A DNA stretch of 45,986 nucleotides from Hyphomicrobiaceae bacterium (GTDB lineage: Bacteria; Pseudomonadota; Alphaproteobacteria; Rhizobiales; Aestuariivirgaceae): NCBI GenBank assembly GCA_900298995.1, contig OMIC01000058.1, positions 1 to 45,986 of the forward strand, given 5' to 3'. The position numbers and the translations under genes are program-made. This document shows positions 28,150 to 45,873 of the stretch, in pieces. Position 1 is the stretch's first letter; the number at the start of each line of letters is the position of its first letter. The notes beneath the pieces were generated by a model. The model ran no database searches and was not told where the DNA came from. It saw nothing but the letters and a program-made list of their open reading frames with translations.

Positions 28150-28993
28150 CGATCCTCCCCAGCCACTGGCCCACGAAACGCGTGTCGCCCGCCAGATGCA
28201 GCGCTGCAGCGGTCATGTACCCCACCACAAGACAGCCTCGGGCGCAGGCTACACCAGCATCGAGCGCGGCCGCAATTTCATTTACCTGCAACGGCCCGAC
28301 ACCCCGGGTGACCAGCCTTGCGCCCAGATCATTGTCAGGTTGGATGTCACGCGCCGGCACACGCTCTATGGCCGGATGCCCCGGCAGGTCGACCGCATTG
28401 GCGATGAACGTCGCAGCGGAATCTGCTTGGCTCGCGCAAGCGGCCAGCACGGTCACCGCGTCGGCGATTCCCAGCGAGAAGGACCGACCCCGCCAGCCGC
28501 TGGTGGCAATGCCGCGCACGGGATCTTCGGCACGCAACCGGGTGGTGGCGAACAGCGCAGGCTGATCGGGCCGGCTCACGAGTCCGATGTCATAGGCCAT
28601 GCCGGGCGCGAGATGGAAGGCAATGTCGCCGCCATTGTTGACGAAGGCGCGCGCCAGCGGCGCAGCGCCGGTCATGCTTGCAAGCACCTCTTCGGCCACC
28701 GAACCTGCAACCGCCGCCATGGGGGTGATGAAACATTCCGCCGCAAGGACCCGCGTGGCCTGCCACATGCGCCGTGCCACCTCACCCAGAGGCTTCTCGC
28801 CCGTCGGGCGGCGAAGCAGGGGCAACTCCGCGCAGAGTTCATCGAGTATGGTCTCAAAGCGCCGTTCAGCAGCGTGGTAGGCCGATGCGATGGCTCCGGC
28901 CTCGCCATCCGCGCCGATGATAAGGTCGATGGGACCATCGTGAAGGTGCAACCTGCGTCCGTCAGGCAGCAGGGCGGCCTGTACCCTTTTCAT
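28094..28993 (-). CDS. UPF0280 (ApbE-like) family protein
   Basis: A 299-residue member of UPF0280/COG2122, distantly related to the FMN transferase ApbE. Characteristic are CFITPMAAVAGSVAEEVL, NNGGDIAFHLAPG, IATSGWRGRSFSLGIADAVTVLA and ATFIANAV. No reaction is known; the ApbE relation suggests flavin or flavin-pyrophosphate handling. It overlaps the Mo-hydroxylase gene by 4 bp at its start and the first DUF1185 gene by 56 bp at its end; such an overlap length is unusual. In some bacteria UPF0280 genes lie beside 6-hydroxynicotinate reductase and DUF1185 genes, which points to N-heterocycle catabolism (from memory, to be checked). Confidence 0.82.
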   Translation of the reverse strand: MKRVQAALLPDGRRLHLHDGPIDLIIGADGEAGAIASAYHAAERRFETILDELCAELPLLRRPTGEKPLGEVARRMWQATRVLAAECFITPMAAVAGSVAEEVLASMTGAAPLARAFVNNGGDIAFHLAPGMAYDIGLVSRPDQPALFATTRLRAEDPVRGIATSGWRGRSFSLGIADAVTVLAACASQADSAATFIANAVDLPGHPAIERVPARDIQPDNDLGARLVTRGVGPLQVNEIAAALDAGVACARGCLVVGYMTAAALHLAGDTRFVGQWLGRIDAGRQGEEISGLGGGDPS

Positions 28994-31722
28994 GTGGTGC
29001 GGGCGGCCCGGATTGCAGCAAGCACGCGCTCAGGCGTTGCCGGCGTGCGGGTCAGCCGCGCTCCGGTGGCGTGATGAATGGCGTTCAGGATCGCAGGTGC
29101 GGTCGGGATCAGCGCCTGTTCGCCAATACCCTTGGCACCGAAGGGACCGACGGAGGAGGCGCGCTCCACGAGAATCGAGTCGATCGGCGGCACGTCGCCG
29201 ATGGTGGGAATGAGATAGTCATGCAGGTTTTCCCCACGGCCCGGCGTGAACTCCTCCATCAGCGCCATACCGATTCCCTGCGCAACACCACCCTCGATCT
29301 GGCCTTCGACAAGGACCGGATTGATGGCGCGACCGACGTCATGGGCCGCCACGATGCGCAGCACTTTCACAAGTCCCAGCCGGATATCGACCTCAACCTC
29401 CGCCAGATGCGCGCCATAACCATAGACGGCATAGGGAATGCCCTGGCCATTGGCATCCAGCGGCGCGGTCGGTGGATCAAATGTTTCTTCTGCACACAGT
29501 ACATAGCCGTGGGGGCCGCGCGCCAAGGCCCCAAGATCGACCGTACGAATGACGCCGCCCTCATCGACGCGCAGGATGCCTGCGGCCAGTTCAAGGCCTG
29601 CACCTTCGCCAGCATTGGCTAGCCGCAGGAGCTGACGGCGGAGGGCCCGCCCGGCAAGTTCTGCCGCCTTCCCGGTGACAAAGGTCTGGCGCGAGGCCGA
29701 GGTCTTGCCGCAATCCGGCGTGAGGTCGGTATCGGGAGAGACGAGATCGATCATGGCGACCGGCAGACCCACCGCGTCGGCGGCGATCTGCGCAATGGCT
29801 GTGTTCGAGCCCTGGCCGATGTCGACTGCTCCCTGATGCAGTGCCAGGCGGCCATCGGGCTTGACGCCGAAGCGGATGGTTGAGGGATTGGGAAGCGAGG
29901 TGTTGCCGCAGCCATAGAACATGCCTGCAACGCCCACGCCACGTCGCATCGCACCGGCTTGCGTGTTGAACGCGTCAGCTGTTTGTCGCAACTTCTGCCA
30001 GGCTGGGCGCAGGGCTTCGAAACAGGCGCGGATGCCGACGCCATCCCCCATCACCTGTCCGGTGACAGTGGGCGTTGCCTCGGTCAGGGCGTTGCGGATC
30101 CGGAACTCCAGCGCGTCGAGACCGAGCTTCGCGGCCAGCATGTCGAGCATCTGTTCCTGAGCGATCACCGTCTGCGGCACGCCAAAGCCGCGGAACGCTC
30201 CTGCGGGCACGCAATGAGTCAGGATGGCGCGGGTCTCGGCACGGTAGTTGGGCACAACATAGGGGCCCGACGCATGGACCGGCACGCGGTTCGCGACCGT
30301 CGGCCCCCAGGAGGCATAGGCGCCGGTGTTGAAGTCACCCTCGAAATCCATGGCCAGGAGATCGCCCTCCCGGGTTGCAGCCATGCGCGAGCGCATGATG
30401 GCCGGATGGCGCTTGGTGGTCGACTGGATCGATTCAGGACGCGAATAGACCATGGCAACCGGCTGGCCCGTGAGCCACGCGGCAAGCGCCACATAGGGCT
30501 GCACCGAGAGATCGAGCTTCGAACCGAAGCCACCGCCACAGGCCGAGGGAATGATGCGGATGCTCTCCGGTGGCAGGCCCATGATGGCGGCCGTGTCGTC
30601 GCGGTCCATGTAGGGCGATTGGGTCGAGGCCGTGATCTCGATGCGTTCACCCACCCGTCGCGCCCATCCGGCCTCGGGCTCGATATAGGCATGTTCGACA
30701 AAGGAGGTCTCGAACACGCCTTCGACCGTGACGGCCGCATCGGCAAAACCCTGCCCGACATCGCCGCGCGCCACGCGGCCTTTGACGAGAACATTGCCGG
30801 CCCGTTTGGCGTGGAGTTGCGGGGCATCCGCCGCAAGCGCTTCGGCAATACCCAGAACCGCAGGACGCTCGTCCCAGATGACCGGGAATAGAGCAAGATC
30901 AAGCGCCTCGATCACCGCGCGCTCACCGACGACGGCGGCCACGGCCTCGCCACGGAAACGCGTTTCGCCTTCCGCAAACACCGGCTGATCTGCAAAGGGC
31001 GGTATGACGCCGAAGACATTGCGACCCGGAATGTCCCTTGCTGTCAATATGCGGGCAAGACCGGGATGCGCACGGCTGTAGCCATCGAGATCACCGAAGC
31101 GGAATCCAGCCCGATGGTAGGGGGAGCGCACCGCCCTGACCCACAGCGCGCCCGCCGGCACGGCATCGGCGCCATAGGGTTCCGTCCCCATCACCTTCGG
31201 CCGGCCGTCGAGCCGTGCGATGGGCGCACCGACCGCAGCGCCCGATGACGGCGTCAGCATCTCAGCAGCCCGACCCTGCGCGGCATCTGCAACTGCATCG
31301 ATGATCTTGGAATAGCCGGTACAGCGGCAGAGCACGCCGCCCAGCGCGTCGGCAATGGCGGCACGGTCCGGCGCAGCAGTCTGTGCCAGCAACGCCGTCG
31401 CCGCCATCAGCATGCCCGGCGTGCAGATGCCGCACTGCGCCGCGCCGCGCGCCAGAAAGGCCTTTTGCAGCCTTGCTCCGATGTCGGACCCGGCAAGCCC
31501 CTCGACGGTCTCGATGCGCGCCCCCTCAACCTGCGCCACCGGCACGAGACAGGCGCAGACCGGCTCGCGGTCCGCCAACACGGTGCAGGCGCCGCAATCG
31601 CCGGCATCGCATCCGCTCTTGACCCCCGTCTGCCCCAGCGTGCGGCGCAGGGCTTCGCTGAGGCGCATGCCGGGGTCCGCCGCACAGTTGACGCTCTTGC
31701 CATTCAGTTCAAAGGAAATCAC
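28990..31722 (-). CDS. Molybdenum hydroxylase with fused [2Fe-2S] and molybdopterin domains
   Basis: A 910-residue xanthine oxidase-family protein that hydroxylates a ring or aldehyde carbon. Two N-terminal [2Fe-2S] clusters: plant-type C38, C43, C46 and C58, and the helical one C97, C100, C132 and C134. The molybdopterin part starts near 165 (ARLDGRPKVMGTEPYG) with ACGGGFGSK, GAFRGFGVPQT, IGQGSNTA and catalytic Glu in KGIGEQALIPTAPAI. That tail, rather than GEPPL, resembles nicotinate- or aldehyde-type members more than xanthine dehydrogenase. The FAD subunit is upstream, 1 base away. A fused small/large chain is less usual than three subunits. Substrate unknown; a nitrogen heterocycle is a reasonable guess. 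Confidence 0.9.
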   Translation of the reverse strand: MISFELNGKSVNCAADPGMRLSEALRRTLGQTGVKSGCDAGDCGACTVLADREPVCACLVPVAQVEGARIETVEGLAGSDIGARLQKAFLARGAAQCGICTPGMLMAATALLAQTAAPDRAAIADALGGVLCRCTGYSKIIDAVADAAQGRAAEMLTPSSGAAVGAPIARLDGRPKVMGTEPYGADAVPAGALWVRAVRSPYHRAGFRFGDLDGYSRAHPGLARILTARDIPGRNVFGVIPPFADQPVFAEGETRFRGEAVAAVVGERAVIEALDLALFPVIWDERPAVLGIAEALAADAPQLHAKRAGNVLVKGRVARGDVGQGFADAAVTVEGVFETSFVEHAYIEPEAGWARRVGERIEITASTQSPYMDRDDTAAIMGLPPESIRIIPSACGGGFGSKLDLSVQPYVALAAWLTGQPVAMVYSRPESIQSTTKRHPAIMRSRMAATREGDLLAMDFEGDFNTGAYASWGPTVANRVPVHASGPYVVPNYRAETRAILTHCVPAGAFRGFGVPQTVIAQEQMLDMLAAKLGLDALEFRIRNALTEATPTVTGQVMGDGVGIRACFEALRPAWQKLRQTADAFNTQAGAMRRGVGVAGMFYGCGNTSLPNPSTIRFGVKPDGRLALHQGAVDIGQGSNTAIAQIAADAVGLPVAMIDLVSPDTDLTPDCGKTSASRQTFVTGKAAELAGRALRRQLLRLANAGEGAGLELAAGILRVDEGGVIRTVDLGALARGPHGYVLCAEETFDPPTAPLDANGQGIPYAVYGYGAHLAEVEVDIRLGLVKVLRIVAAHDVGRAINPVLVEGQIEGGVAQGIGMALMEEFTPGRGENLHDYLIPTIGDVPPIDSILVERASSVGPFGAKGIGEQALIPTAPAILNAIHHATGARLTRTPATPERVLAAIRAARTT

Positions 31723-31723
31723 C

Positions 31724-32560
31724 TCAGAGAACCCCCACCGCGCGGTCCAGCGCCTCGCCGATCACCGTGATCGCGGCATCAAGCCGGTAATCCGCCGAAG
31801 CTCGGACATCGCCGATGGGCGCGAGCGGCGCGAGATGCTGCGGCGCCACCCGTGTCGAAGGCCGCTCCCCGGGCGCGAGGTTCCGCAGATCCTGCTCCAG
31901 TGCCGGGAGGCGTTGCGCCACGGGCGAGGCGGCGCCCACGGCGATGGCGGCCCGGATGATGCGCCCGGCGCTATCCCTTTCCACAAGGGCGGCGGCCATG
32001 AGAATTGAGATGACCAGATAGCGCCGCGCGCCAAGCTTCACGAAGGCAGAGCGGGCGCCAGTGCCGGGCAGCGGGACGGTGACCGCCGTGACGATCTCAC
32101 CCGGCGCGAGCGCCGTCTTGCGATAGCCGGTGATGAAAGCAGCCAGCGGCAGCATCCGCCGGCCCGTCACCGAGGCAATCTCCACCCGGGCATCGAGCGT
32201 GAGCAGCGGTGGAACGCCATCAGCCGCAGGCGAGGCATTGCAGAGATTGCCGGCAATCGACCCCCGGTTCTGGATCTGCACCGAGCCGACCTCGCGGGCC
32301 GCAGCCTTCAACCCGTCGAAGGCGGGCGGCAGATCTGCCGCGACGATGTCGCTCCAGGTGGTGGCCGCACCAATGCGGATTTCCCCAGACCCCTGTGTGA
32401 TCCCCCGCAGGCCCTCGACCCTCGAGAGATCGACCAGCGGGCGGCTCAGCGCCTTGCCTGCATGGGCCGGGTAGACATCGGTGCCACCGCACAGCGCGAG
32501 CGCATCCGGCGCCTGCATGGCGCGCGCCGCTTCCTCCACCGTCATAGGCCTCGCATACAT
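31724..32560 (-). CDS. FAD-binding subunit of the molybdenum hydroxylase
   Basis: A 278-residue CoxM-like FAD subunit that passes electrons from the [2Fe-2S] clusters onward. CGGTDVYPAH matches the first FAD loop and QIQNRGSIAGNLCNASPAAD the second. Start ATG 32560 is taken from the MYARPMTVEEAARAM beginning, common to the family; an earlier in-frame ATG at 32680 would add 40 residues crossing the operator. One base separates it from the fused subunit. The operator palindrome and a TTGACA -35 lie upstream, so it leads this operon. Confidence 0.88.
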   Translation of the reverse strand: MYARPMTVEEAARAMQAPDALALCGGTDVYPAHAGKALSRPLVDLSRVEGLRGITQGSGEIRIGAATTWSDIVAADLPPAFDGLKAAAREVGSVQIQNRGSIAGNLCNASPAADGVPPLLTLDARVEIASVTGRRMLPLAAFITGYRKTALAPGEIVTAVTVPLPGTGARSAFVKLGARRYLVISILMAAALVERDSAGRIIRAAIAVGAASPVAQRLPALEQDLRNLAPGERPSTRVAPQHLAPLAPIGDVRASADYRLDAAITVIGEALDRAVGVL

Positions 32561-32615
32561 CGCTGCGCCGGTCTCCGCTTCGAAACATGCAGTCTGTGGC
32601 GCAGGCGGCGAGATT

Positions 32616-32641
32616 GTCAAGCAAGGCGGGCCTTGCTTGAC
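32616..32641. promoter_or_regulatory. Perfect 26-bp palindrome in the divergent purine/N-heterocycle gap
   Basis: GTCAAGCAAGGC, GG, GCCTTGCTTGAC: 12-bp perfect arms at 32616-32627 and 32630-32641. It lies midway between the divergent starts at 32560 and 32688. Each arm supplies a TTGAC word pointing outward: TTGACA on the minus strand (32620 to 32615) and TTGACG on the plus strand (32637-32642). A bound regulator would cover both -35 boxes. Regulator family unknown. Confidence 0.7.
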
Positions 32642-32687
32642 GTTTGCCAGCCGTTCATGGTGCAAGGGGACTGGGAGCAATCACGCC

Positions 32688-33473
32688 ATGACCAAACCCG
32701 ATCTTGCCGCGGCAGCGGACACTCTTCTCGGCCAATGGGCTGCGACGACCCGCATCGCCGCCCTGCCCGCAGCCATGCGGCCCACAACGCGCGCCCAGGG
32801 CTATGAGGCAGCCGCCCTGCTCGCGGACAGAAGCGGAAGCAGCGTGGCGGGCTGGAAGATTGCCGCCACGAGCGAAGCCGGCCAGAAACACATCAACGTC
32901 GACGGCCCGCTTGCCGGCCGCATCCTCAGAAGCAAGTTGCTGCAGCCGGGAGCCCGTGTGCCGCTGTCCGGCAACATCATGCGCGTGGCCGAAGCCGAAT
33001 TTGCCTTCGGCTTCACGAAGGACCTCCCGCCACGGGCCGCAGCTTACACGCAGGCGGAGGCTCTGGATGCGGCGGGGTCTCTGCATCTGTCGATCGAGGT
33101 GCCGGACAGCCGCTATGAGGACTTCACGAAGGTCGGCGCCGCGCAACTGATTGCTGATACTGCCTGCGCCTGCTGGCTGGTGCTGGGGCCGCCGGTAGCC
33201 GCGCCGTGGCGTGATCTCGATCTCTCAACCCATGTCGTGAGAGGTTCGGTCAATGGGACGCTGCGGGCGGAAGGCACGGGAAAGGCCGTCCTCGGCGGAC
33301 CGTTCACTGCGCTCACGTGGTTCGTCAATGAAGCGGCGACTCACTGCGGTGGCGTAAAAGCAGGTCAGTTCGTGACCACGGGCACCTGCCTCGTTCCAAT
33401 GGCGATAGCACCAGGCGACGAGATCACGGCTGATTATGGCGTGCTCGGCGCAATTTCCTGCAGGATTGCCTGA
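32688..33473 (+). CDS. 2-keto-4-pentenoate hydratase/FAH-family protein
   Basis: A 261-residue member of the fumarylacetoacetate hydrolase superfamily, closest in pattern to MhpD-type 2-oxopent-4-enoate hydratases. The metal site appears as AEAEFAFGF and EVPDSRYEDF; KIAATSEAGQKHINVDGPLAGRI and GSVNGTLRAEGTGKAVLGGP are other family blocks. The true substrate is unknown. It is not a canonical purine enzyme but is co-transcribed with ureidoglycolate lyase (4-base gap), so a 2-oxo acid from ring opening is possible. Start ATG 32688 has GGGAG 10 bases upstream; in-frame upstream ATGs lie across the operator. Confidence 0.82.
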   Translation: MTKPDLAAAADTLLGQWAATTRIAALPAAMRPTTRAQGYEAAALLADRSGSSVAGWKIAATSEAGQKHINVDGPLAGRILRSKLLQPGARVPLSGNIMRVAEAEFAFGFTKDLPPRAAAYTQAEALDAAGSLHLSIEVPDSRYEDFTKVGAAQLIADTACACWLVLGPPVAAPWRDLDLSTHVVRGSVNGTLRAEGTGKAVLGGPFTALTWFVNEAATHCGGVKAGQFVTTGTCLVPMAIAPGDEITADYGVLGAISCRIA

Positions 33474-33477
33474 CCCG

Positions 33478-33969
33478 ATGCGCCAGCTCATCCCCACGCC
33501 GCTGACCCGCGAAGCCTTCGAGCCTTTTGGCGACGTGGTTGAAATCGCCGGTGCAAGCCCAATCACCATCAACCAGGGCTTTGCCCAGCGCTTCAACGAT
33601 CTCGCACATATCGATGTCCAGAGTGCGGAAGGCGAGGTCAATGTCAGCTTCTTTGTCGGTCAGCCGCGTCCGCAGCCGATCGCCGTGAAGCTGATGGAGC
33701 GCCATCCGCTTGGCAGTCAGCTCTTCATGCCGATGCAGGATCGCCCATGGCTGGTGCTGGTGGCGGCGGATCCGCATGATCTGTCGAGCTATCACGCTTT
33801 TGCTGCCACTGGACGTCAGGGTGTCAATTATGCCCGCAACGCCTGGCATCATCCGCTTCTGGTGTTCGATGCCGACAGCCGCTTTCTCATAATCGACCGC
33901 AAGGGCCCCGGCATCAATCTGGAAGAAGTGTGGCTGCCCGACGAGAAGGTCTTCAGCCTCACGGCGTGA
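33478..33969 (+). CDS. allA: Ureidoglycolate lyase
   Basis: A 163-residue lyase that splits ureidoglycolate into glyoxylate and urea at the end of purine degradation. Family marks include EAFEPFGDVVEI, NQGFAQRFNDLAHID, ERHPLGSQLFMPM and NAWHHPLLVFD. The length matches AllA. The ATG at 33478 is 4 bases after the hydratase stop. It is convergent with the guanine deaminase gene, overlapping it by 11 bp. The preceding allantoin and allantoate steps are not encoded in this window, so they must lie elsewhere. Confidence 0.93.
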   Translation: MRQLIPTPLTREAFEPFGDVVEIAGASPITINQGFAQRFNDLAHIDVQSAEGEVNVSFFVGQPRPQPIAVKLMERHPLGSQLFMPMQDRPWLVLVAADPHDLSSYHAFAATGRQGVNYARNAWHHPLLVFDADSRFLIIDRKGPGINLEEVWLPDEKVFSLTA

Positions 33970-35248
33970 TGCGCTCAAAAACCTTGCGGCCTTTCACATA
34001 GGTCGCGGCCACTGCACGGTCATCGCCCAGCATCATCAGCGAGAACAGCACGTCTTCAAGGGAAGCAGAGACCTCCTGGCGACTGGCCAGAACCGGTGTG
34101 GCGCAAGGATCGAGCACCACCAGGTCGGCAAACTTCCCCAGCTCCAGCGCGCCGGTCTCATGATCCATGCGGAGCCGCTTTGCATTGCCGCGCGTCGCCA
34201 TCCGGAACAAGTCCGCAGCACTTGGCTTGTACCCCACCAGCATCTGCACCTTGTAGGCCTCGGCCATGGTGGCCAGCATGGAATAGCTGGTGCCGCCACC
34301 CACATCCGTGGCCAGACCCAGTGCAACGGGACGCTCCGGCTTCGAGAGATGCGGCATCGACATGAGGCCGGAGCCGAGGAAGGTGTTGGATGTCGGGCAG
34401 TGGACCACCGCAGACCCCGACTCCGACAGGCGTGTGCACTCCCGTTCCGACAGATGAATTCCGTGCGCGAAGAGGCTGCGGGGCCCCAGCAGTCCGAAAT
34501 GGTCGTAGACGTCGGTATAGTCTTTCGCCCAGGGAAAGAGCCGACCCACCATCGCGATCTCGCCGGCGCTTTCGGAGAGATGCGTCTGCATCAGCGCCCC
34601 GTCGAGCGAGGCGAGCAGCTCGCCGGACAGGCGCAACTGCGCATCCGAGGAGGTGATCGCAAAGCGTGGCGTCACAGCGTAGCGCAACCGCCTCTTGCCA
34701 TGCCAGGCTTGATAGAGCTCGGCACTCTCGCGTGCTCCGGTTTCAGGATCATCCTCGACAGCGGGTATGGCATTGCGGTCCATCATGGTCTTGCCGGTGA
34801 TGAGTGCCATCCCTCGCGCATCGGCGGCCTCGAAGAGCGCCTGTGCACAGACCTTGTGGACCGAGCAGAAGACCAGCGCCGCGGTGGTGCCATGGGCATG
34901 CAAGCGGTTCAGAAAAACAGTTGCGGAGCGGTCTGCGTAGTCCTTGGCGGCGTAGCGGCTTTCCTCGGGAAAGGTAAAGCGGGTGAGCCAGTCCATAAGG
35001 TCCTTGGCCGGCGCGGCAAGCATCCGGTATTGCGGGAAGTGAATATGGGCGTCGATGAAGCCTGGCATGACGATCATGCGTCCATGGTCATGGGTCTCGA
35101 CCTGGCGGAAGGCCTGCGGCAGAAGCGGCTGCGGGCCACACCACAGGATCACCCCATCATCACCCACGACGACGGCGCCGCGCTCTTCATGCCGGAGCGC
35201 GCCCTCCGCGCTGAACGTCAGGGTCTGGCCCTTGATGACGCAGGTCAT
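33959..35248 (-). CDS. guaD: Guanine deaminase
   Basis: A 429-residue amidohydrolase that turns guanine into xanthine and ammonia. Hallmarks are MPGFIDAHIHFPQYRM with the zinc-binding His68 and His70, SLFAHGIHLSERE, THLSESAGE and GLATDVGGGTSYSML. The DWLTRFTFPEE insertion is typical of guanine deaminase among amidohydrolases. It is the last gene in the long minus-strand purine operon and overlaps uraD by 4 bp. With XdhAB encoded upstream it feeds xanthine to the dehydrogenase. Codes for a cytosolic enzyme without signal sequence. Confidence 0.94.
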   Translation of the reverse strand: MTCVIKGQTLTFSAEGALRHEERGAVVVGDDGVILWCGPQPLLPQAFRQVETHDHGRMIVMPGFIDAHIHFPQYRMLAAPAKDLMDWLTRFTFPEESRYAAKDYADRSATVFLNRLHAHGTTAALVFCSVHKVCAQALFEAADARGMALITGKTMMDRNAIPAVEDDPETGARESAELYQAWHGKRRLRYAVTPRFAITSSDAQLRLSGELLASLDGALMQTHLSESAGEIAMVGRLFPWAKDYTDVYDHFGLLGPRSLFAHGIHLSERECTRLSESGSAVVHCPTSNTFLGSGLMSMPHLSKPERPVALGLATDVGGGTSYSMLATMAEAYKVQMLVGYKPSAADLFRMATRGNAKRLRMDHETGALELGKFADLVVLDPCATPVLASRQEVSASLEDVLFSLMMLGDDRAVAATYVKGRKVFERITP

Positions 35249-35742
35249 GGCGCCACCCGATCTTCGAGACGAAAGCGGAAGATGCGGCAGATCTGCGCCA
35301 GCGCCGTCTCGAATTCCACTTCCGGACTGTTGCCGACGCGCGCCTCGAAACTTTCGAGAATCATCTGCCTGGTGGCGCCACGGACCGCGAAGATGAAGGG
35401 AAAGGCGAAGCGCGACCTGTAGCGGGTGTTGAGGTCGGTGAAGCGGGCGAACTCCTCGGCCGAGAGGCTCGACAGCCCGGCCCCGGCCTGCTCTTTCGTC
35501 GAGTCGTCAGTGAGTTTGGCACGCGTTGCGAGATCCGGGTGCGCGCGGATCAGCGCCAGCTGAGACTGACGGTTTGCGCCTCGCAGGGCGGAGGTGAAGG
35601 CGGCGATCATGCCCTCACGATCCCGATAGGGACGGTGGCCGGCCGCTTCGCGCGCCACCCAGGGCGAATGTTCCGCCACATCGCCGAATGCCTCGACAAA
35701 GGCGGCGGGGAGCATGGCATTGATGTCTGCTATGCTGATCAT
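35245..35742 (-). CDS. uraD: OHCU decarboxylase
   Basis: 2-oxo-4-hydroxy-4-carboxy-5-ureidoimidazoline decarboxylase, the last step to S-allantoin. The 165-residue protein shows ADINAMLPAAFVEAFGDVAEHSPWVA, IRAHPDLATRA with the catalytic His, STKEQAGAGL, LNTRYRSRFAFPFIFAV and the tail. ATG 35742, within an ATGA overlap with puuD, is chosen; ATG 35757 adds five residues. The HIU hydrolase that would precede it is not seen in the window, so the intermediate may open slowly by itself or be handled elsewhere. Confidence 0.94.
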   Translation of the reverse strand: MISIADINAMLPAAFVEAFGDVAEHSPWVAREAAGHRPYRDREGMIAAFTSALRGANRQSQLALIRAHPDLATRAKLTDDSTKEQAGAGLSSLSAEEFARFTDLNTRYRSRFAFPFIFAVRGATRQMILESFEARVGNSPEVEFETALAQICRIFRFRLEDRVAP

Positions 35743-37820
35743 TGCCTTGCAATCCATGCTCCGAGCCTGGCGCGCTCATCATCGGTCATGCCCGTTCGGT
35801 TGCCGAGCGGCATGGCCTTGTTGCGGATGGCCTGGACATCGATCTGGGCGGCATAGCGCTTCAGGTCAGCCAGGTTCTCGAGATGTATACCCTTCGGAGC
35901 CACCTTGATGGAGGCGTCCGTGGGATTGGCCGCATGACAGGCCGCGCAGCGTGTCTGGACGATCCCAAGGGCCGCCTCGTCAGTCACTTCACCCTGAAAG
36001 AGCACGAGCTTCGAAGGCTCGGTCACGATCAGGGCCAGTGCGAGCGAGCCTCCGATGAGCGGCAGGGTCCAGGCAATGTCAGCCTGCCGGTCGCCGACCT
36101 CCGTCCGGACGAGGAAATGGCGCGCCAATCCGCCCGAAAGAATGATGAGCCCCGCCAGCAGCCAGGCACTTGGGCTGTCGGTGATCATCGGGAAGTGATT
36201 GCTGATCATCATGGCCAGCACGGGCAGCGTCAGGTAGGTGTTGTGCAGCGAGCGCTGCTTGCCTGTGGCGCCGAGTGCGGGATCGGGCGTGTCGCCCCGC
36301 AGAAGGGCTGCAGTGATCTTCCGCTGATTTGGAATGATGACCATGAAGACATTGGCCGCCATGAGCGTGCCGATGAGAGCGCCGATATGTATGAAGGCGC
36401 CACGGCCTGAAAAAACATGGGTGTAGGCATAGGCAAAGGCCAGCAGCAGGACGAACAGAGCAAGTCCCAGAAAGCCTGTGCGCCGTCCGAGCGGCGAGCG
36501 GCAAAGCGCGGAATAGGCCAACCAGCCGATGCCGAGACTTGCGAGGGAAAGGCCGATGGCCTGCCAGGACGTAAGGGCCATGACCGCGGGGTCGATGAGA
36601 TAGCTCTCGGCCTGAAGGTAATAGAGCACGACGAGCAGCAGGAAGCCGGTCAGCCAGGTGAGATAGGCCTCCCACTTGAACCAGATGAGATGGGTGGGAA
36701 GTTCGGCCGGTGCGGTCAGATATTTGCGCACATGGTAGAAGCCACCGCCATGCACCTCCCAGGCTTCCCCTGCCACACCCGGCGGCAGGCCCGGCCCCTT
36801 GCGAAGCGAGAAATCCAGCGCCACGAAATAGAAGGAGGTGCCGATCCAGGCAATGCCTGCGATCATGTGCGACCAGCGGATCAGGAGATTGGCCCAGTCG
36901 AGCGAAAGGACGGGCTGAGACGAGAGCCACCAGGCAAGACAGAGCGCACCGAAGATGATGGGCAGCGTCCAGCCGATCTTCGAGAGCGGGTCGCCCACCT
37001 CGTGGCGCACAAGAAAATGCCGCAGCGCCGCGCCGCCCACGAAGATGAGCCCGATCAGAAGCCAGGCCTGGGAAGCATCCGTGAGCATGGCGAAGTGATT
37101 GCTGATCATCATCAGCAGTACCGGCAGGGTCAGATAGGTGTTGTGCAGGGAGCGCTGCTTGCCCATCGCTCCAAGAGCAGGATCGGGCGTCTCGCCGCGC
37201 AGAAGCGCTGCGGTAATGCGCCGCTGGTTGGGAATGATGACCATGAAGACATTGGCGGCCATCATGGTGCCCGTGATGACGCCAACGTGGATGAACGCGC
37301 CACGCCCCGAGAATACATGGGTGAAAAGCCAGGCAAAGCCGAGGATGAGCGCGAAGACCCCGCCCGCCAGCGCGGCAGGACGTCGGCCCAGGGGCGAGCG
37401 GCAGGCGCCATCATAGACGAGCCAGCCGGCAACGATCGAAACGAGGGAGATCGCCACCGCCGCCAGAGGCGACAGCGCAAGTATGGAGGGATCAATCAGA
37501 TTGGCGCTGGCGTCGGCGTAATAGACAATCCCGAGCAGCAGGAAGCCGGTCAGCCAGGTGAGATAAGCTTCCCACTTGAACCAGGTAAGATGATCGGGAA
37601 GACTGGCAGGCGCGGAGAGATATTTCTGCACATGATAGAAGCCGCCGCCATGTACTTCCCAGGCCTCGCCGCGCACCCCGGCAGGCAGCCCGTCGCGGCC
37701 GCGCAGGGAGAAGTCGAGCGCCACGAAATAGAAGGAGGTGCCGATCCAGGCGATGCCTGCGACCATGTGCCCCCAGCGGATGAGAAAGTTCATCCAGTCA
37801 ATCATGAACAGCCAGACCAT
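35739..37820 (-). CDS. puuD: Urate hydroxylase PuuD with a tandemly duplicated membrane domain
   Basis: PuuD-type urate oxidase: an integral-membrane enzyme that hydroxylates urate to 5-hydroxyisourate and passes electrons to its cytochrome c. Known PuuD has one membrane domain (PF06181, about 300 residues, eight or so helices) plus a cytochrome c tail. This 693-residue protein has two membrane copies, at about 8-292 and 308-592, spaced exactly 300 residues without gaps and about 70% identical by eye. Both keep GIAWIGTSFYFVALDFSLR, EAWEVHGGGFYHV, THVFSGRGAFIH, ANVFMVIIPNQ, TPDPALG, RSLHNTYLTLPVL and MISNH. A single c-type heme site follows: Cys625, Cys628, His629 (CAACH), with a Met in KAMPLGN. 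The start is ATG 37820; ATG 37805 is possible. Confidence 0.93.
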   Translation of the reverse strand: MVWLFMIDWMNFLIRWGHMVAGIAWIGTSFYFVALDFSLRGRDGLPAGVRGEAWEVHGGGFYHVQKYLSAPASLPDHLTWFKWEAYLTWLTGFLLLGIVYYADASANLIDPSILALSPLAAVAISLVSIVAGWLVYDGACRSPLGRRPAALAGGVFALILGFAWLFTHVFSGRGAFIHVGVITGTMMAANVFMVIIPNQRRITAALLRGETPDPALGAMGKQRSLHNTYLTLPVLLMMISNHFAMLTDASQAWLLIGLIFVGGAALRHFLVRHEVGDPLSKIGWTLPIIFGALCLAWWLSSQPVLSLDWANLLIRWSHMIAGIAWIGTSFYFVALDFSLRKGPGLPPGVAGEAWEVHGGGFYHVRKYLTAPAELPTHLIWFKWEAYLTWLTGFLLLVVLYYLQAESYLIDPAVMALTSWQAIGLSLASLGIGWLAYSALCRSPLGRRTGFLGLALFVLLLAFAYAYTHVFSGRGAFIHIGALIGTLMAANVFMVIIPNQRKITAALLRGDTPDPALGATGKQRSLHNTYLTLPVLAMMISNHFPMITDSPSAWLLAGLIILSGGLARHFLVRTEVGDRQADIAWTLPLIGGSLALALIVTEPSKLVLFQGEVTDEAALGIVQTRCAACHAANPTDASIKVAPKGIHLENLADLKRYAAQIDVQAIRNKAMPLGNRTGMTDDERARLGAWIARQ
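36045..36899 (-). repeat. puuD membrane domain, copy 2
   Basis: Codons 308-592. It is the second unit of the tandem and passes directly into the cytochrome c tail. The counterpart blocks to copy 1 lie 900 bases lower, for example 36631-36660 and 36181-36255. Differences gather in the outer helices and interhelix turns. Confidence 0.9.
36945..37799 (-). repeat. puuD membrane domain, copy 1
   Basis: Codons 8-292, on the minus strand. It aligns with copy 2 at an exact 900-base shift, with no insertion or deletion. Several nucleotide blocks are near-identical, for example around 37531-37560 and 37081-37155. Confidence 0.9.
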
Positions 37821-37836
37821 GGGCTTTCCGCGAAGA

Positions 37837-37867
37837 CGCCTGCCGGGGATCGCTCCCGCGGCAGGCG
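37837..37867 (-). other. Stable intercistronic hairpin between the binding protein gene and puuD
   Basis: Perfect 9-bp arms CGCCTGCCG (37837-37845) and CGGCAGGCG (37859-37867), extended by GGGA/TCCC, with a 4-base loop and one bulge. No T-run follows on the minus strand, so this looks like an mRNA-stability or partial-termination element after the binding-protein gene, common for ABC importers. Confidence 0.6.
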
Positions 37868-37888
37868 CGCTGGTGTTGCGTCAGACGC

Positions 37889-38962
37889 TTACTGCGGCAG
37901 CTTGTCGTCAACGCCCTTGATGTAATAGTTCATGCCGAGCAGCTCGCCGTCCGGCAGCGGCTTGCCCGCCTCGCCGACGACCGTGCCGTCCTGCTTGGTG
38001 ATTGGGCCGGTGAAGGGATGGAATTCGCCGGACTTGATCTTGGCGACCGTGTCCTCGGCCATCTTCTTCACGTCGTCTGGCATGTTGGTGAAGGGCGAGA
38101 GCACCACCATGCCGTCCTTCATGCCGCCCCAGGTGTCTTCCGACTTCCAGGTGCCGTCCAGCACGGCCTGAACGCGCGCGATGTAATAGGGATCCCAGTC
38201 ATCCGTGTTGGCGGTGAGCTGGGCTTTCGGCGCAAACTTGATCATGTCGGAGGACTGACCGAAACCAAGCTTGCCCTGTTCTTCCGCAACCTGAAGCGCA
38301 GCGGTGGAATCCGTATGCTGGACAATGATGTCCGCTCCCTGTCCAAACAGCACCTTGGCGGCGTCAGCTTCCTTGCCCGGGTCATACCAGGAGTTCACCC
38401 AGACGATCTTGACCTTGAAATCCGGATTCACAGACTGTGCACCGAGCATGAAGGCATTGATGCCCATCACCACCTCGGGGATCGGGAAGGAGACGATGTA
38501 GCCGGCAACGCCCGCCTTCGACATCTTGGCGGCGATCTGGCCCATCACATAGCGGCCCTCATAGAACCGCGCGTTGTAGATCGAGACATTGTCGGCTTTC
38601 TTGTAACCGGTGGCGTGCTCGAACTTCACATCGGGATACTTGGCTGCGACCTTGATGGTCGGATCCATGAAACCGAAAGAGGTCGTGAAGATGATCTTGC
38701 AGCCCTCGCGCGCGAGGCGCTCGATGGCGCGCTCGGCATCGGGGCCCTCGGCCACATTCTCGAGGAAGGCTGTCTCGACCTTGTCGCCGAGCGCCTTCTC
38801 GACCGCCTTGCGGCCCAGGTCATGCTGGTAGGAATAGCCAAAATCACCCACCGGGCCGACATACACCCAGCAGGCCTTGAGCTTGTCAGCGGCATTCGCG
38901 GCCGATGCAGAAACGCCGAGCGCCAGCGCCGCCGCCATTGTCATCCAGATCTTCAACTTCAT
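37889..38962 (-). CDS. BMP-family ABC transporter substrate-binding protein
   Basis: A 357-residue periplasmic binding protein of the BMP/PnrA family, which bind nucleosides or purine derivatives. Residues 1-25 form a Sec signal peptide (MKLKIWMTMAAALALGVSASA, ANAA cleavage), with no lipobox. YVGPVGDFGYSYQHDLGRKA, AREGCKIIFTTSFGFMDP and KAGVAGYIVSFPIPEV are family-like. The start is ATG 38962, since AAGGAG lies 8-9 bases upstream; a start at 38989 adds nine residues. A guanine-, xanthine- or nucleoside-type ligand is expected from the operon. The intercistronic hairpin downstream may raise its mRNA level above that of the other genes. Confidence 0.92.
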   Translation of the reverse strand: MKLKIWMTMAAALALGVSASAANAADKLKACWVYVGPVGDFGYSYQHDLGRKAVEKALGDKVETAFLENVAEGPDAERAIERLAREGCKIIFTTSFGFMDPTIKVAAKYPDVKFEHATGYKKADNVSIYNARFYEGRYVMGQIAAKMSKAGVAGYIVSFPIPEVVMGINAFMLGAQSVNPDFKVKIVWVNSWYDPGKEADAAKVLFGQGADIIVQHTDSTAALQVAEEQGKLGFGQSSDMIKFAPKAQLTANTDDWDPYYIARVQAVLDGTWKSEDTWGGMKDGMVVLSPFTNMPDDVKKMAEDTVAKIKSGEFHPFTGPITKQDGTVVGEAGKPLPDGELLGMNYYIKGVDDKLPQ

Positions 38963-38999
38963 TCTTGTTTCTCCTTGTTCAAAACCCATTGCTGCTGGC

Positions 39000-39923
39000 C
39001 TACCGGTCAGGCACGAAGGGCTGACCGAGACAAGCCGGCGTGTTGGCCCGTGTGAGAGCCTTATTGCCCGACATCACAACCAGAACGAGAATGGTTACGA
39101 CATAGGGAAGAGCGGATAGTAGCTGGGATGGAATGCCGATGCCATGCGCTTGAAGCGCAAATCCCATCACCGTGATCGTGCCAAAGAGATAGGCCCCTGC
39201 CACGATACGCCAGGGGAGCCAGGACGCGAAGACGACCAGCGCCAGGGCGATCCAGCCCCGCCCGGCCGTCATGTTCTCGACCCATTGCGGGGTATAGGCG
39301 AGCGACAGATAGCCCCCCGCCAGCCCCGCGCAGGCGCCGCCGAACATGACGCAGAGATAGCGCACGCCCGCCACGGAATAGCCCAGCGCATGGGCCGACT
39401 GGTGGCTATCGCCCACCGCGCGGATGACAAGGCCCGCCTTTGTACGGAACAGCACATGGGAGGTGCCCGCCGCAATGATCAGCGCGGCATAGACCAGCAG
39501 ATCCTGGCCGAAGAGGATGGGGCCGAGAAACGGGATATCGCTGAGGCCCGGAACGTGGATCTTCTGCAGCTGCACGCCGGGCTGGCCAACGAAGCTCTCT
39601 CCGGCGAGACCCGCAAGGCCGAGGCCGAGAAGTGTCAGCGCAAGCCCGGTGGCCACCTGATTGGACACCATGGTGAGGGTGAGGAAAGCAAACAGCAGCG
39701 ACAGCGCCGCGCCGGCGACGAGCGCGGCCACCACACCCAGATAGGGCGAGCCTGTCAGCAGCGCCGCGCCGAAGCCCGACACGGCGCCCACCGCCATCAT
39801 GCCCTCCACGCCGAGATTGATGACGCCAGAACGTTCTGCGACCAGTTCTCCCATTGAGGCGAGGAGAAGGGGTGTCGACGCCGTGATGATCGTCAGGATG
39901 ATGGAGAGAAGCTGCTCGCTCAT
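39000..39923 (-). CDS. ABC importer permease, BMP system (short)
   Basis: A 307-residue membrane protein with about eight to nine helices of the branched ABC permease type used with BMP binding proteins. The conserved ELVAERSGVINLGVEGMMAVGAVSGF stretch near the N-terminus and FEQVATGLALTLLGLGLAGL-like middle region are typical (NupQ/YufQ). It is the partner of the following longer permease in a heterodimer. Its ATG overlaps the previous permease stop by 4 bp. It precedes the binding protein gene by 37 bases. Confidence 0.88.
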   Translation of the reverse strand: MSEQLLSIILTIITASTPLLLASMGELVAERSGVINLGVEGMMAVGAVSGFGAALLTGSPYLGVVAALVAGAALSLLFAFLTLTMVSNQVATGLALTLLGLGLAGLAGESFVGQPGVQLQKIHVPGLSDIPFLGPILFGQDLLVYAALIIAAGTSHVLFRTKAGLVIRAVGDSHQSAHALGYSVAGVRYLCVMFGGACAGLAGGYLSLAYTPQWVENMTAGRGWIALALVVFASWLPWRIVAGAYLFGTITVMGFALQAHGIGIPSQLLSALPYVVTILVLVVMSGNKALTRANTPACLGQPFVPDR

Positions 39924-41026
39924 GTGCGGGTCTCCACCAGACTGGCTGCAGGACCCTGGAAGCGAAGACGATAGAGGATCAGCGTATCGCAGGCCAGGAT
40001 GTAGAACAGCAGGATGCCCTGAAAGACACGCGCCGTCTTGTCGGAGATACCAAGAGCCACCTGGGCCGATTCACCTCCGAGATAGCTGATGGCGAGGGCG
40101 AAAGCCGCGACAAGAGCTCCCAGGGGATTGAGCCGGCCGAGGAAGGCCACGATGATCGCCGTGAAGCCATAACCGGGTGAGATTCCGGGTTGCAGCTGAC
40201 CGACCGTGCTCATCACTTCGCAGATGCCGGCTAGCCCCGCGAGGCCGCCGGACAGCAAGAAACAGAACCACACCGTGCGATTGCGCGCGAAGCCCGAAAA
40301 ACGTCCGGCGCGCGGCGCCAGTCCCTGGACGCTCAGCTCGAAACCCTTCAGCGTCCGGCCCATGAGCACGGCCAGCGCAAGCACCGCGAGGACGGCGAAG
40401 ACAGCGCCGAGGTTGACATAGACCGGCCCCACAGACGGCGGGAGAAGCTGGAAGCTTGGCAGCGTCTGCCAGCCGGAGAAGGCAACCGTCTTGGGAAAAT
40501 TGTAGCCCTGCGGATCACGCCAGGGCCCGCGCACCAGCCAGTCGAGCAGAAGCTGGACGACATAGACCAGCATGAGGCTTGTCAGGATTTCATTGGTACC
40601 GAAGCGATTCTTGAGAAAGGCGGGTATGGACGCATAGGCCATTCCGCCAGCGATGCCGAGCAGCAGCATGAGAAGCAGTGTCAGTGGCGATTGAAGGTCG
40701 GGCAAGAACACCGGAATGACGGCACCCAGAATGGCACCGGCCGTGAACTGGCCCTCGGCGCCGATGTTCCAGGCACTGGCCCGATAGGATATCGCCAGCC
40801 CCGCGCCGATAAGCGCGAGCGGCGTCGCCTTGACGATCAGTTGCTCGATCGACCAGGAGGTTGCCAGCGGCTCCACGAAGTAGACGTAGAGGGCGGCCAG
40901 CGGATCAAGCCCGCGCAAGGCAAAAATGATGCCGCCGGTGATCAGGGTGAGCACGATTGCGATGATGGGCGAGAGCAGCGCCATCTTCGCAGAATGCTCG
41001 GCCCTTTTCTCAAGCACGAGCCGCAT
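39920..41026 (-). CDS. ABC importer permease, BMP system (long)
   Basis: A 368-residue permease with about ten membrane segments. Blocks include SYRASAWNIGAEGQFTAGAI, PAFLKNRFGTNEILTSLMLVYV and ISPGYGFTAIIVAFLGRLNPLGAL, all marks of the NupP/YufP-like BMP permease. Start ATG 41026 is chosen because GGGAG lies 7 bases upstream; ATG 41047 adds seven residues. It starts 17 bases inside the 3' end of the ATPase gene, so the two are translationally coupled. Confidence 0.88.
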   Translation of the reverse strand: MRLVLEKRAEHSAKMALLSPIIAIVLTLITGGIIFALRGLDPLAALYVYFVEPLATSWSIEQLIVKATPLALIGAGLAISYRASAWNIGAEGQFTAGAILGAVIPVFLPDLQSPLTLLLMLLLGIAGGMAYASIPAFLKNRFGTNEILTSLMLVYVVQLLLDWLVRGPWRDPQGYNFPKTVAFSGWQTLPSFQLLPPSVGPVYVNLGAVFAVLAVLALAVLMGRTLKGFELSVQGLAPRAGRFSGFARNRTVWFCFLLSGGLAGLAGICEVMSTVGQLQPGISPGYGFTAIIVAFLGRLNPLGALVAAFALAISYLGGESAQVALGISDKTARVFQGILLFYILACDTLILYRLRFQGPAASLVETRT

Positions 41027-42545
41027 GGGCGCTCTCCCTGCGTTCATGCGCGCCCGCCATCAGCAGGCCGATCCGCTCCGCGGAGAGGCTGGCAGCCGGA
41101 TAGGCATCCGACAGCTGGCCGCGCGAGATGACCGCGATGCGGTCGGCAATCTCGAAGATCTCGTCAAGGTCCTGGCTGATGACCAGCACCGCCGAGCCCT
41201 GCCGTGCCAGGTCGACGATGGCCTGGCGGATGGTGGCGGAAGCGCCGGCATCGACCCCCCAGGTCGGCTGATTGACGACCAGCACGCCGGGCCTGCGGTC
41301 GAGTTCGCGGCCGACGACGAATTTCTGGAGATTGCCGCCCGACAGCGAGCGCGCCTCGGGGTCGGGCTTTGCCTTGCGGACATCAAAGGCCTTGCTGACC
41401 CGCGCGGCAATGCCGGTCGCGGCTTCGCGGTTCACAAAGCCGCCACGTGCCAGTTGCGGGTCGCAGGCATGGCGCGTCAGAACGACATTCTGGGACAGCG
41501 TGAAGCCCGGCACGGCGCCATGGCCCAGCCGTTCCTCGGGCACGAAGGCGGCACCCGCCTTGCGCCGGGCATTGACGCCGCTGCGGCCCACCGGGCGGCC
41601 ATCGAGCGCGATCATGGCGTCGTCCGCCAGTCGGCGCTCGCCCGACACGGCATCGAAGAATTCCGCCTGTCCGTTGCCCGCGACTCCGGCCACGGCCACC
41701 ACCTCGCCTGCCCGCACCTCGAGCGAGATGTCCTTCAGCGCAACGGCGAAGGGCCCGTCGGCTTCAAGCTCGAGACCCGAGAGCGCAAGTCGCACCGCAC
41801 CGCCCGCATCCGGGGCCGCGGCACGCACGACATGGATGTCGCCGCCCACCATGAGCCGCGCAAGACTCGCTGCCGTCTCCTCCGCAGGATCGACATTGGC
41901 CACAACCTTGCCGTGGCGCAGGATGGTTGCGTTGTGGCAGAGCCGCTTCACTTCTTCCAGCCGGTGGCTGATGTAGATCACGGCACAGCCCTCGCCCGCA
42001 AGGCGCGTCAGCGTCACGAACAGCTGGTCGGCTTCCTGGGGCGTCAGCACCGCGGTCGGTTCATCCATGATCAGGAGCCTCGGCTCCTGCAGCAGGCAAC
42101 GCACGATTTCAATGCGCTGGCGCTCGCCCACCGAGAGATCGGCAACCACCGCGGAGGGCTCGAGCGGCAGGCCATACTCCCGGGACACGCCGGCGATGCG
42201 CGCCGAGAGGGCCTTCATGTCGAAAGGCCCCGGCATGGCCAGCGCAATGTTCTCGGCGACGGTGAGCGCCTCGAAAAGCGAGAAATGCTGGAACACCATG
42301 CCAATGCCAAGCTTTCGCGCCGCCGCGGGGCTTGGAATGGCCACGCGACGGCCCATCCAGCGGAATTCCCCGGCGCTGGGCTGAAGCGCGCCATAGATCA
42401 TCTTGACGAGTGTCGACTTGCCCGCTCCGTTCTCGCCGAGAAAAGCATGGATCTCGCCAGGCTTCACCCGCAGCGTCACGTCGTCATTCGCCTTCAGCGC
42501 GCCGAAGAGCTTGGTGACATGCAGGGCCTCGAGGAGATAATCCAT
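41010..42545 (-). CDS. ABC importer ATPase with two nucleotide-binding domains
   Basis: A 511-residue duplicated ATPase of the sugar/nucleoside type. The first domain has Walker A GENGAGKS (37-44), VFQHFSLFEALTVAENI, signature LSVGERQRIEI and LLIMDEPTAVL. The second has the usual modified GVAGNGQAEFFDAV in place of Walker A and LSGGNLQKFVVGRE as signature. It energises the two permeases that follow. The first gene of the importer, it comes 3 bases after xdhC, which suggests that import and xanthine oxidation are controlled together. Confidence 0.92.
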   Translation of the reverse strand: MDYLLEALHVTKLFGALKANDDVTLRVKPGEIHAFLGENGAGKSTLVKMIYGALQPSAGEFRWMGRRVAIPSPAAARKLGIGMVFQHFSLFEALTVAENIALAMPGPFDMKALSARIAGVSREYGLPLEPSAVVADLSVGERQRIEIVRCLLQEPRLLIMDEPTAVLTPQEADQLFVTLTRLAGEGCAVIYISHRLEEVKRLCHNATILRHGKVVANVDPAEETAASLARLMVGGDIHVVRAAAPDAGGAVRLALSGLELEADGPFAVALKDISLEVRAGEVVAVAGVAGNGQAEFFDAVSGERRLADDAMIALDGRPVGRSGVNARRKAGAAFVPEERLGHGAVPGFTLSQNVVLTRHACDPQLARGGFVNREAATGIAARVSKAFDVRKAKPDPEARSLSGGNLQKFVVGRELDRRPGVLVVNQPTWGVDAGASATIRQAIVDLARQGSAVLVISQDLDEIFEIADRIAVISRGQLSDAYPAASLSAERIGLLMAGAHERRESAHAARA

Positions 42546-42548
42546 GGT

Positions 42549-43457
42549 TCAGCCGGTTTTTTCCGATCTCACAATGCCTTGGCGGACAGGGGCTGACAAT
42601 GCCTCATCAAGGGCGATGATCTGGGCAACCACAGAAATCGCGATGGCCGCCGGCAGCTTGGAGCGGATGCCGCCAATGCCGATGGGACAGATCATGGCGG
42701 CGATCCGGTCCTCGGGCAGGCCCGCCTCGCGCAGGCGCTTCACGAAGCGCGCCCGCTTTGTGGCGCTGCCGATGACACCGATTTCGAGGATCGAGGGGTT
42801 CGCGAGGGCGGCGGCGGCGATCTGAAGGTCCAGCGCGTGGGAATGGGTCATGATGAAGGCAAGCGACCCGGACGCCGCCCCGGCCACCACGTCCAGCGGG
42901 TTTCCGGCAAAGGCCGTCACGCTCTGCGGCAGGACGCCGGGAAAGCTTTCAGGTCGGGGGTCGGCCCAGGTCACGTCATAGGGCAAGGGGGCGAGAGCCA
43001 GCATCAGCGCGCGGCCGACATGGCCGGCACCAAAAACGAGAACGCGGCGCCGGACGGCACCGAACTGCTCGGACACATCAATGCCGGGCAAGCGACCCAA
43101 CAGGGTGAAAGGCCCGGCAGCTTCGCGCGCGGCGTGATCGGCAACCTCGGCAAGCGCGTCGGCATCGAAACTCTCGACCGCCAGCTTCACCCGTCCGCCG
43201 CAGCACTGGCCGAGATCAGGCCCCAGAGACTGATTGATGAACCGTACCTGACGCGGCTTGCCGAGCATGGCCTGCGCCATGGCCAGCGCCTTCCATTCCA
43301 GCGCCCCGCCGCCAATCGTCCCGTGGAAGCCAGCGGCACTCACCACCATCCGAGCACCTGCCTCGCGCGGCGCCGAACCATCCGTGGCAATGACACTCAC
43401 CAGCGCGCAGGACCCCTGCTCGGCAAGCGCCCTGGCGATGAGGCTCCACGTCTTCAT
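42549..43457 (-). CDS. xdhC: Xanthine dehydrogenase accessory protein XdhC
   Basis: A 302-residue chaperone that binds molybdenum cofactor and helps its sulfuration and insertion into xanthine dehydrogenase. The N-terminal XdhC_CoxI domain shows ALVSVIATDGSAPREAGARMVV, GTIGGGALEWKAL and LGQCCGGRVKLAVE. The C-terminal Rossmann part carries VLVFGAGHVGRALMLALAPLPYDVTWAD and MTHSHALDLQI. ATG 43457 overlaps the xdhB stop by 4 bp; upstream in-frame starts lie inside xdhB. The order xdhA-xdhB-xdhC then the ABC genes is a single transcription unit. Confidence 0.94.
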   Translation of the reverse strand: MKTWSLIARALAEQGSCALVSVIATDGSAPREAGARMVVSAAGFHGTIGGGALEWKALAMAQAMLGKPRQVRFINQSLGPDLGQCCGGRVKLAVESFDADALAEVADHAAREAAGPFTLLGRLPGIDVSEQFGAVRRRVLVFGAGHVGRALMLALAPLPYDVTWADPRPESFPGVLPQSVTAFAGNPLDVVAGAASGSLAFIMTHSHALDLQIAAAALANPSILEIGVIGSATKRARFVKRLREAGLPEDRIAAMICPIGIGGIRSKLPAAIAISVVAQIIALDEALSAPVRQGIVRSEKTG

Positions 43458-45760: not shown

Positions 45761-45873
45761 GATGCCATCACTCCACGCGCCCCCAACAGCCGCGTGGCGG
45801 CCGTGCCTGCAACTTCCATCAGCGCCTTGCGCAACAGGCCCTGCGCCACCTCCATGCGGTAGGCGGCCGAGGC
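45757..45873 (-). CDS. xdhA: Xanthine dehydrogenase small subunit, genuine 3' end only
   Basis: About 38 codons encode the C-terminus of XdhA: ASAAYRMEVAQGLLRKALM, then EVAGTATRLLGARGVMAS and stop. The small subunit carries the two [2Fe-2S] clusters and FAD; only the last part of its FAD-domain tail is here. Further up the same frame a TAG occurs at 45943-45945. That is not a real nonsense change: the sequence there is the same gene in the reverse direction, a chimera (see next entry). Confidence 0.85.
   Translation of the reverse strand, partial: ASAAYRMEVAQGLLRKALMEVAGTAATRLLGARGVMAS

Follow-up and report, generated by a model that had tools for sequence, protein, structure and literature searches.

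The window, namely the whole stretch of 45,986 nucleotides of contig OMIC01000058.1 (assembly GCA_900298995.1) from a Hyphomicrobiaceae bacterium, carries on its minus strand a gene for the membrane urate oxidase PuuD, in which the membrane module occurs twice and the cytochrome c once. The features of this gene are the following.

35739..37820, minus strand: gene of the double-module urate oxidase PuuD, running from its ATG at 37820 to its stop at 35739 and coding for 693 aa
36924..37805, minus strand: membrane module 1, PF06181 copy 1, residues 6-299, E 3.8e-122, with eight long helices in the AlphaFold2 (AF2) model
36060..36902, minus strand: membrane module 2, PF06181 copy 2, residues 307-587, E 4.6e-125, likewise with eight long helices in the AF2 model
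36900..36932, minus strand: short linker, at about residues 297-307, which connects the final helix of module 1 with the opening helix of module 2
37278..37280, minus strand: copy-1 codon at the Ala place, residue 181, Val (Ala in 62/68 single PuuDs and 13/16 copy 2)
36510..36512, minus strand: copy-2 codon at the Asp137 place, residue 437, Ser (Asp in 65/68 single PuuDs and 17/17 copy 1)
35934..35948, minus strand: heme c attachment site CAACH, residues 625-629, from motif and alignment
35811-35813, minus strand: proposed sixth heme ligand Met670, from alignment, the ligand role being by analogy with the available text of PMC4562309

Two membrane modules and one heme c site in a single chain

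The first-pass annotation, made from the sequence alone, had claimed two urate-hydroxylase membrane domains in one chain with one heme-binding CAACH at residues 625-629, and both claims are borne out, the CAACH being the sole CxxCH of the protein. In a Pfam profile search PF06181 (Urate_ox_N) matches twice in the same frame with zero internal stops, the modules scoring 407.4 and 417 bits, where the cut-off is 26.9, and the 693-aa protein as a whole 811.7 bits over the two stretches. The two copies can be aligned free of gaps over 290 residues, 205 of which are identical (71%), with an offset of exactly 300 aa or 900 nt; the DNA identity of the aligned codons is likewise 71%, and at third codon positions it is 53%, which argues for an old duplication and not for a single copy assembled twice. 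The module-to-module join comprises some six to ten residues and is too short to hold a cytochrome c remnant, and module 1 is without a cytochrome c of its own. The doubled membrane module is thus real and old, inside one bacterial family, and at E<=0.001 the double puuD is the sole PF06181 gene of its genome.

As judged from motif and alignment, a C-terminal cytochrome c with CxxCH and a Met ligand is present. In a 58-row alignment of the heme domain, C625, C628, H629 and M670 occupy nearly invariant columns, and so does R683; the window protein has no Pfam match for a cytochrome domain at E<=0.001, and such a match is obtained in only 12 of the 58 members of this alignment. The AF2 model of the whole double chain has a predicted local distance difference test score (pLDDT) of 86.1 and a predicted template modelling score (pTM) of 0.85, as compared with 85.7 and 0.82 for a single PuuD (L050), and shows eight long helices per module at matching places, where membrane insertion and direction are those predicted in the available text of PMC4562309. 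No solved structural relative was found by sequence at E<=1, and Foldseek at E<=0.001 gave none either, whether it was started from the single-module model or from that of the double chain.

Comparison with described PuuD and other PF06181 proteins

According to the available text of PMC4562309, the described PuuD is a bi-domain protein with one 8-helix module and one cytochrome c, predicted to have both termini outside (Nout-Cout), with the conserved loops cytosolic and the heme domain periplasmic; deletion of puuD in Agrobacterium abolishes urate degradation, and PuuD is the prevalent urate oxidase of diderm aerobes. The window protein resembles PuuD of Agrobacterium fabrum (Atu2314; COG3748; PF06181/DUF989) in its module sequence, its conserved histidines and loops, its C-terminal CxxCH, the Met at the expected place and a gene context of purine degradation, and differs from it in having a second copy of the module alongside the single cytochrome c. 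For this reason it is classed as a variant of PuuD. The remark of the first-pass annotation that it knew of no described double-domain PuuD agrees with our search of the open-licence literature, exclusive of supplements, in which no describing paper was found; neither "duplicat" nor "two domains" occurs in the available main text of PMC4562309.

Short 4-helix relatives share helices I, II, V and VI and motifs such as RWxH, WIG and PNQ with PuuD (hhalign E 2e-19, 11 sequences), and they are without the HGGG loop, the C140 stretch and the heme domain and have other residues at H226 and H242. Their gene context is completely different from that of puuD in the available text of PMC4562309. Short relatives of this kind, which have no cytochrome c, turn up often in the class sample of the genome survey given below, and eleven of them (L180-L190) were compared. 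Another class relative, L212:322-2847, is an 842-aa frame in which 457-740 match PF06181 as a very divergent stretch (E 6e-34) and a CxxCH stands at 770; it is without an HGGG motif, and the about 450 residues that precede the stretch have no Pfam match at E<=0.01. HemJ (PF03653) has a similar-looking motif in its first helix; a relationship to it, which would have hinted at a b heme in the module, was considered and rejected, the hhalign probability being 1.5% with 12 HemJ sequences and the hmmsearch E-value 0.1 or worse.

Distribution of the double architecture among genomes

To find proteins with two PF06181 domains had been the first check proposed. The survey returned 69 genomes of the family of the window, 50 of them with a PF06181 match, and 17 of these 50 have two modules in one open frame. 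Sixteen belong to the genus of the window (G000, G002, G005, G006, G010, G011, G017, G018, G019, G024, G028-G031, G034 and G035), and G428 belongs to another genus of the family; in three of them, G010, G035 and G428, the double frame is truncated by a contig end. An eighteenth, frameshifted case is G009, where both modules lie as pieces on one contig and the frame lengths are those of L067. The genes of G001, G007 and G013 are broken at contig ends and were left out of the count of doubles. In G013 the two contig ends share an overlapping stretch of 593 bases (95.8%), near-identical copies having been considered as the cause of the breaks. In G001 the starting piece is nearer to copy 1 (85% vs 79%) and the end piece nearer to copy 2 (80% vs 64%), which hints at a double gene.

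A scan with the window protein was also made over a contig collection of one genome per species (84,980 species), which reaches close relatives only. It gave 66 loci, many of which are in the same genomes as those numbered with G, and 16 of them are double (L032-L045, L052 and L067). The taxa given for these 16 are Aestuariivirga, Rhizobium sp. Q54, Rhodobiaceae, Rhizobiales/Hyphomicrobiales, Alphaproteobacteria, Pseudomonadota and "bacterium"; 15 of them are metagenome-assembled genomes and one is a strain, A. litoralis KCTC 52945 (L033). The double PuuD of L067 is frameshifted, possibly by sequencing error, and the contig name gives a coverage of 2.4.

Matches were found in 263 of 397 genomes of the order sample, 155 of 289 of the class sample and 119 of 398 of the phylum sample (the last at E<=1e-30), and no double frame was seen in these samples outside the family, a result that in the order covers all genomes but G167. 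More than one match in the phylum sample, and two strong matches in one frame in the class sample, occur in G000 only. In the order sample two or more matches occur in 20 genomes that are not of the family. Thirteen of these, together with 3 genomes having long frames, were re-inspected and proved to contain separate genes, fragments or weak short stretches. Of the others, G056, G060 and G420 have their matches on separate contigs, and G125, G201 and G388 have weak matches only. Four other long single-PuuD frames (613-1045 aa) have one PF06181 stretch each and no second module. Among plasmids there are 220 matching records, all below 60% identity, and the 15 places listed span about 1,150-1,190 bases, which is the size of a single PuuD. 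The first-pass annotation would have been overturned if double-domain PuuD were common and already described; it is indeed frequent within one family, and no description of it turned up in the open-licence literature searched.

History of the duplication

The tree of the separate copies proposed at first has the copy-1 and copy-2 clades apart in the larger double lineage, hereafter clade A. Within clade A, the family tree of 54 rows supports a clade of copy 2 (12 rows) at 97/80* and one of copy 1 (11 rows) at 83/89; within clade B it supports one of copy 1 (5 rows) at 96/86* and one of copy 2 (3 rows) at 100/99*. In a wider tree of 101 rows copy 1 and copy 2 fall largely in separate sets, and once clade B is set aside, copy 2 already forms a single clade in the best tree (91/95.8, unstarred). 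In approximately unbiased (AU) tests a single clade was not rejected for copy 1 (p 0.092), for copy 2 (0.36) or for all copies together (0.116); for copy 1 without G428, a set picked after the 101-row tree had been seen, the p value is 0.0345. Separate duplications are not rejected either, with AU p values of 0.149 for clade A, 0.182 for clade B and 0.138 for G428, and the best 54-row tree has none of them. As judged from these trees, the doubling goes back at least to clade A.

Thirty-nine genomes, 36 of them with known PuuD state, were placed in an rpoB tree by a quick method without bootstrap. In it the doubles comprise G428 and two groups within the genus, group B has beside it (97*) nine genomes of the genus with a single PuuD, and two changes between the single and the double state suffice over the 36 genomes. 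A simple reading of this tree is that there may have been one gain and a later return to single PuuD. In the 54-row tree, nine singles of the genus (G003, G016, G020, G021, G022, G023, G027, G033 and G036) fall outside the set with all doubles (98/95*), and rpoB nests the seven of these genomes that it samples inside the genus; gene replacement by transfer therefore fits better than module loss, and such a replacement of PuuD is possible in these nine. The 101-row tree has a matching set of singles at an unresolved fork beside the doubles. The singles of G004, G008, G012, G025 and G032 adjoin copy 1 of clade B (85/90 in the 54-row tree). An origin of single PuuDs by crossover between the two copies was rejected, as no clear breakpoint was seen with five windows in 21 family singles.

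Conservation and asymmetry of the two copies

Residues were compared over 17 copy-1 domains, 16 copy-2 domains and 68 single-module PuuDs. Of the 69 positions that are at least 97% identical in the 68 singles, all but one are kept in each window copy (68 of 69), the exception being Y243F in both; at a level of at least 88%, each keeps 93 of 95 positions, the departures being A181V and Y243F in copy 1 and D137S and Y243F in copy 2. Moreover H18, H57, G58-60, C140, K221, R223, H226, N227 and H242 are invariant in 17/17 copy-1 and 16/16 copy-2 domains. In a profile alignment with the short 4-helix relatives (n=11), H57 and C140 stand opposite gaps, H226 and H242 stand opposite other residues, and H18 is common; thus H57, C140, H226 and H242 mark PuuD proper. 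By the Nei-Gojobori method, with range-matched pairs that are not independent, the median pairwise ratios of nonsynonymous to synonymous substitution (dN/dS) are 0.162 for copy 1 (63 pairs), 0.188 for copy 2 (64 pairs) and 0.257 for singles (114 pairs), and copy 1 is more identical between species than copy 2 in 79 of 105 pairs. Taken together, these comparisons indicate that neither copy is decaying and that both are under similar purifying selection, and the early remark that both copies keep all conserved blocks and neither looks dead is right at the block level.

The copies are not exact twins, and their sequences point to a mild asymmetry. Ala181 is kept in 62/68 singles, 1/17 copy 1 and 13/16 copy 2, Asp110 in 17/17 copy 1 against 12/16 copy 2, and Arg173 is Ser in 2/17 copy-1 domains. 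In the 11 clade-A proteins compared, copy 1 and copy 2 have different fixed residues at ten sites (at least 10/11 in each copy); several of the differences are mild (K/R, I/L, F/Y, S/T, V/A), and H273T, Q65R, H77D and F290G are not mild. Given this asymmetry, one copy may be specialised. Gene conversion between the copies left no strong sign: the identity within a protein is 0.66-0.75 against a cross-protein mean of 0.68-0.71, and the excess over that mean, which is seen in 11 of 15 proteins, never goes beyond 0.05.

Proposed mechanism and alternative explanations

In our opinion the protein is, with somewhat better than even probability, a tandem single-chain PuuD, in which two urate-oxidising 8-helix modules share one heme c. 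An ancestral 8-helix module, minus its cytochrome c, would have been placed in frame ahead of a complete PuuD. With an even number of helices and a Nout-Cout topology the second copy would keep the same direction, so that both modules would lie parallel in the membrane, the conserved loops being cytosolic and the single heme c domain periplasmic; the main cost of the tandem would be the missing first cytochrome c. Urate would be converted into 5-hydroxyisourate at both modules on the cytosolic side, as expected from the family role in the available text of PMC4562309, and the electrons of both would pass to the one shared heme c and on to the respiratory chain. The internal pseudo-dimer suggested by the first-pass annotation is compatible with the observations, given the 8-helix Nout-Cout topology published there.

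Several points weigh against this reading. Module 1 would have to feed a heme attached to module 2. Asp137, kept in 65/68 singles and 17/17 copy-1 domains, is kept in only 5/16 copy-2 domains and replaced by Ser/Thr in the other 11/16, a change that spans the clade-A lineage with G002 excepted; and Y243, present in 67/68 singles, is kept in only 7/17 copy 1 and 5/16 copy 2. The two sites may thus be unequal or not fully normal.

Such inequality would suit a division of labour, with module 1 as the main catalytic unit and module 2 mostly as a heme-docking electron relay, or the reverse, in an asymmetric pair. The counts for copy 1 versus copy 2 at Asp137 (17/17 vs 5/16), Asp110 (17/17 vs 12/16) and Ala181 (1/17 vs 13/16) and the ten sites fixed differently in clade A all point this way. 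However, neither copy has lost the PuuD-marking histidines, dN/dS is similar, and at nine variable positions the departing cells number 44/153 in copy 1 and 38/144 in copy 2, hence neither copy is clearly relaxed; moreover 3/68 singles also are without Asp137, which would not be strictly needed if those enzymes work. We consider this explanation rather unlikely, though it survives best of the alternatives. More doubtful is a stronger proposal that the tandem is an obligate asymmetric unit, where one module would do the urate chemistry and the heme-attached one would have been reshaped into a transmembrane electron relay; if true, it would be a membrane oxidase split into reaction and wiring halves from the same fold.

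It is about equally doubtful that module 1 has ceased to be an enzyme and is a structural partner, replacing the second subunit of a putative homodimer, or an aid for urate reaching module 2. A module without its own cytochrome c would suit this role, and a fused dimer needs geometry only, but copy 1 is conserved no less than copy 2 (more identical in 79/105 pairs) and the PuuD-marking residues are kept in it.

That one module has shifted to another substrate, for example another oxopurine, and shares the heme outlet, as also suggested at first, is quite improbable. The copies do form separate clades across the clade-A species and have fixed site differences, but both copies retain every conserved PuuD block, H57, H226, H242 and C140 being kept in all 17 copy-1 and 16 copy-2 domains, and several of the ten fixed differences are mild, though H273T, Q65R, H77D and F290G are not.

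Finally, an assembly error or collapsed repeat, which the first-pass annotation had named as a possible refutation and for which nothing speaks except broken genes in some draft relatives, is practically out of the question, being ruled out by the divergence of the copies, 29% in residues and 47% in third positions, and by the same double architecture in other assemblies, including a 666-kb contig of the strain A. litoralis KCTC 52945.

For the exit of electrons from the membrane module of PuuD, the stoichiometry is set in this natural chain by its two modules and single heme. The tandem is in this sense a built-in test of whether each module must carry its own heme, of whether PuuD works as a dimer, and of which residues matter, D137, A181 and Y243 being naturally variable.

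Purine-degradation setting

The genes around the double puuD are as follows.

33436..33969, plus strand: ureidoglycolate lyase (PF04115, 8.6e-55)
33959..35248, minus strand: amidohydrolase (PF01979)
35245..35757, minus strand: 2-oxo-4-hydroxy-4-carboxy-5-ureidoimidazoline (OHCU) decarboxylase (PF09349, 6.5e-47), sharing 19 bases with the puuD end
37889..42545, minus strand: Bmp-type ABC importer, with binding protein 37889-38989, permeases 39000-39923 and 39920-41047, and ATPase 41010-42545
about 42549-43499, minus strand: XdhC, from a profile match
43454-45760, minus strand: molybdenum-binding xanthine-dehydrogenase-type subunit, from a profile match

The step of OHCU decarboxylase comes two steps after urate oxidation, and a gene for 5-hydroxyisourate (HIU) hydrolase (PF00576) lies elsewhere in the genome. 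The amidohydrolase may be a guanine deaminase, which is a guess from its context. No PF01014 uricase was found in the genome, where the flavin adenine dinucleotide (FAD)-type urate oxidases (HpxO/HpyO) were not searched for. From this setting and the available text of PMC4562309, a role of the double PuuD in urate oxidation is the natural reading.

An Rfam search on 30000-45986 gave zero matches. Two molybdenum hydroxylases flank the purine genes, one being that of the subunit at 43454-45760 and the other a protein of 910 aa at 28990-31722 on the minus strand, in which 2Fe-2S and molybdenum-binding parts are fused and the FAD subunit is apart at 31724-32680. Elsewhere in the window, 26984-27568 and 27565-28149 on the minus strand are adjacent PF06684 (AA_synth) genes with a four-base overlap, that is, another tandem duplication, here as separate genes.

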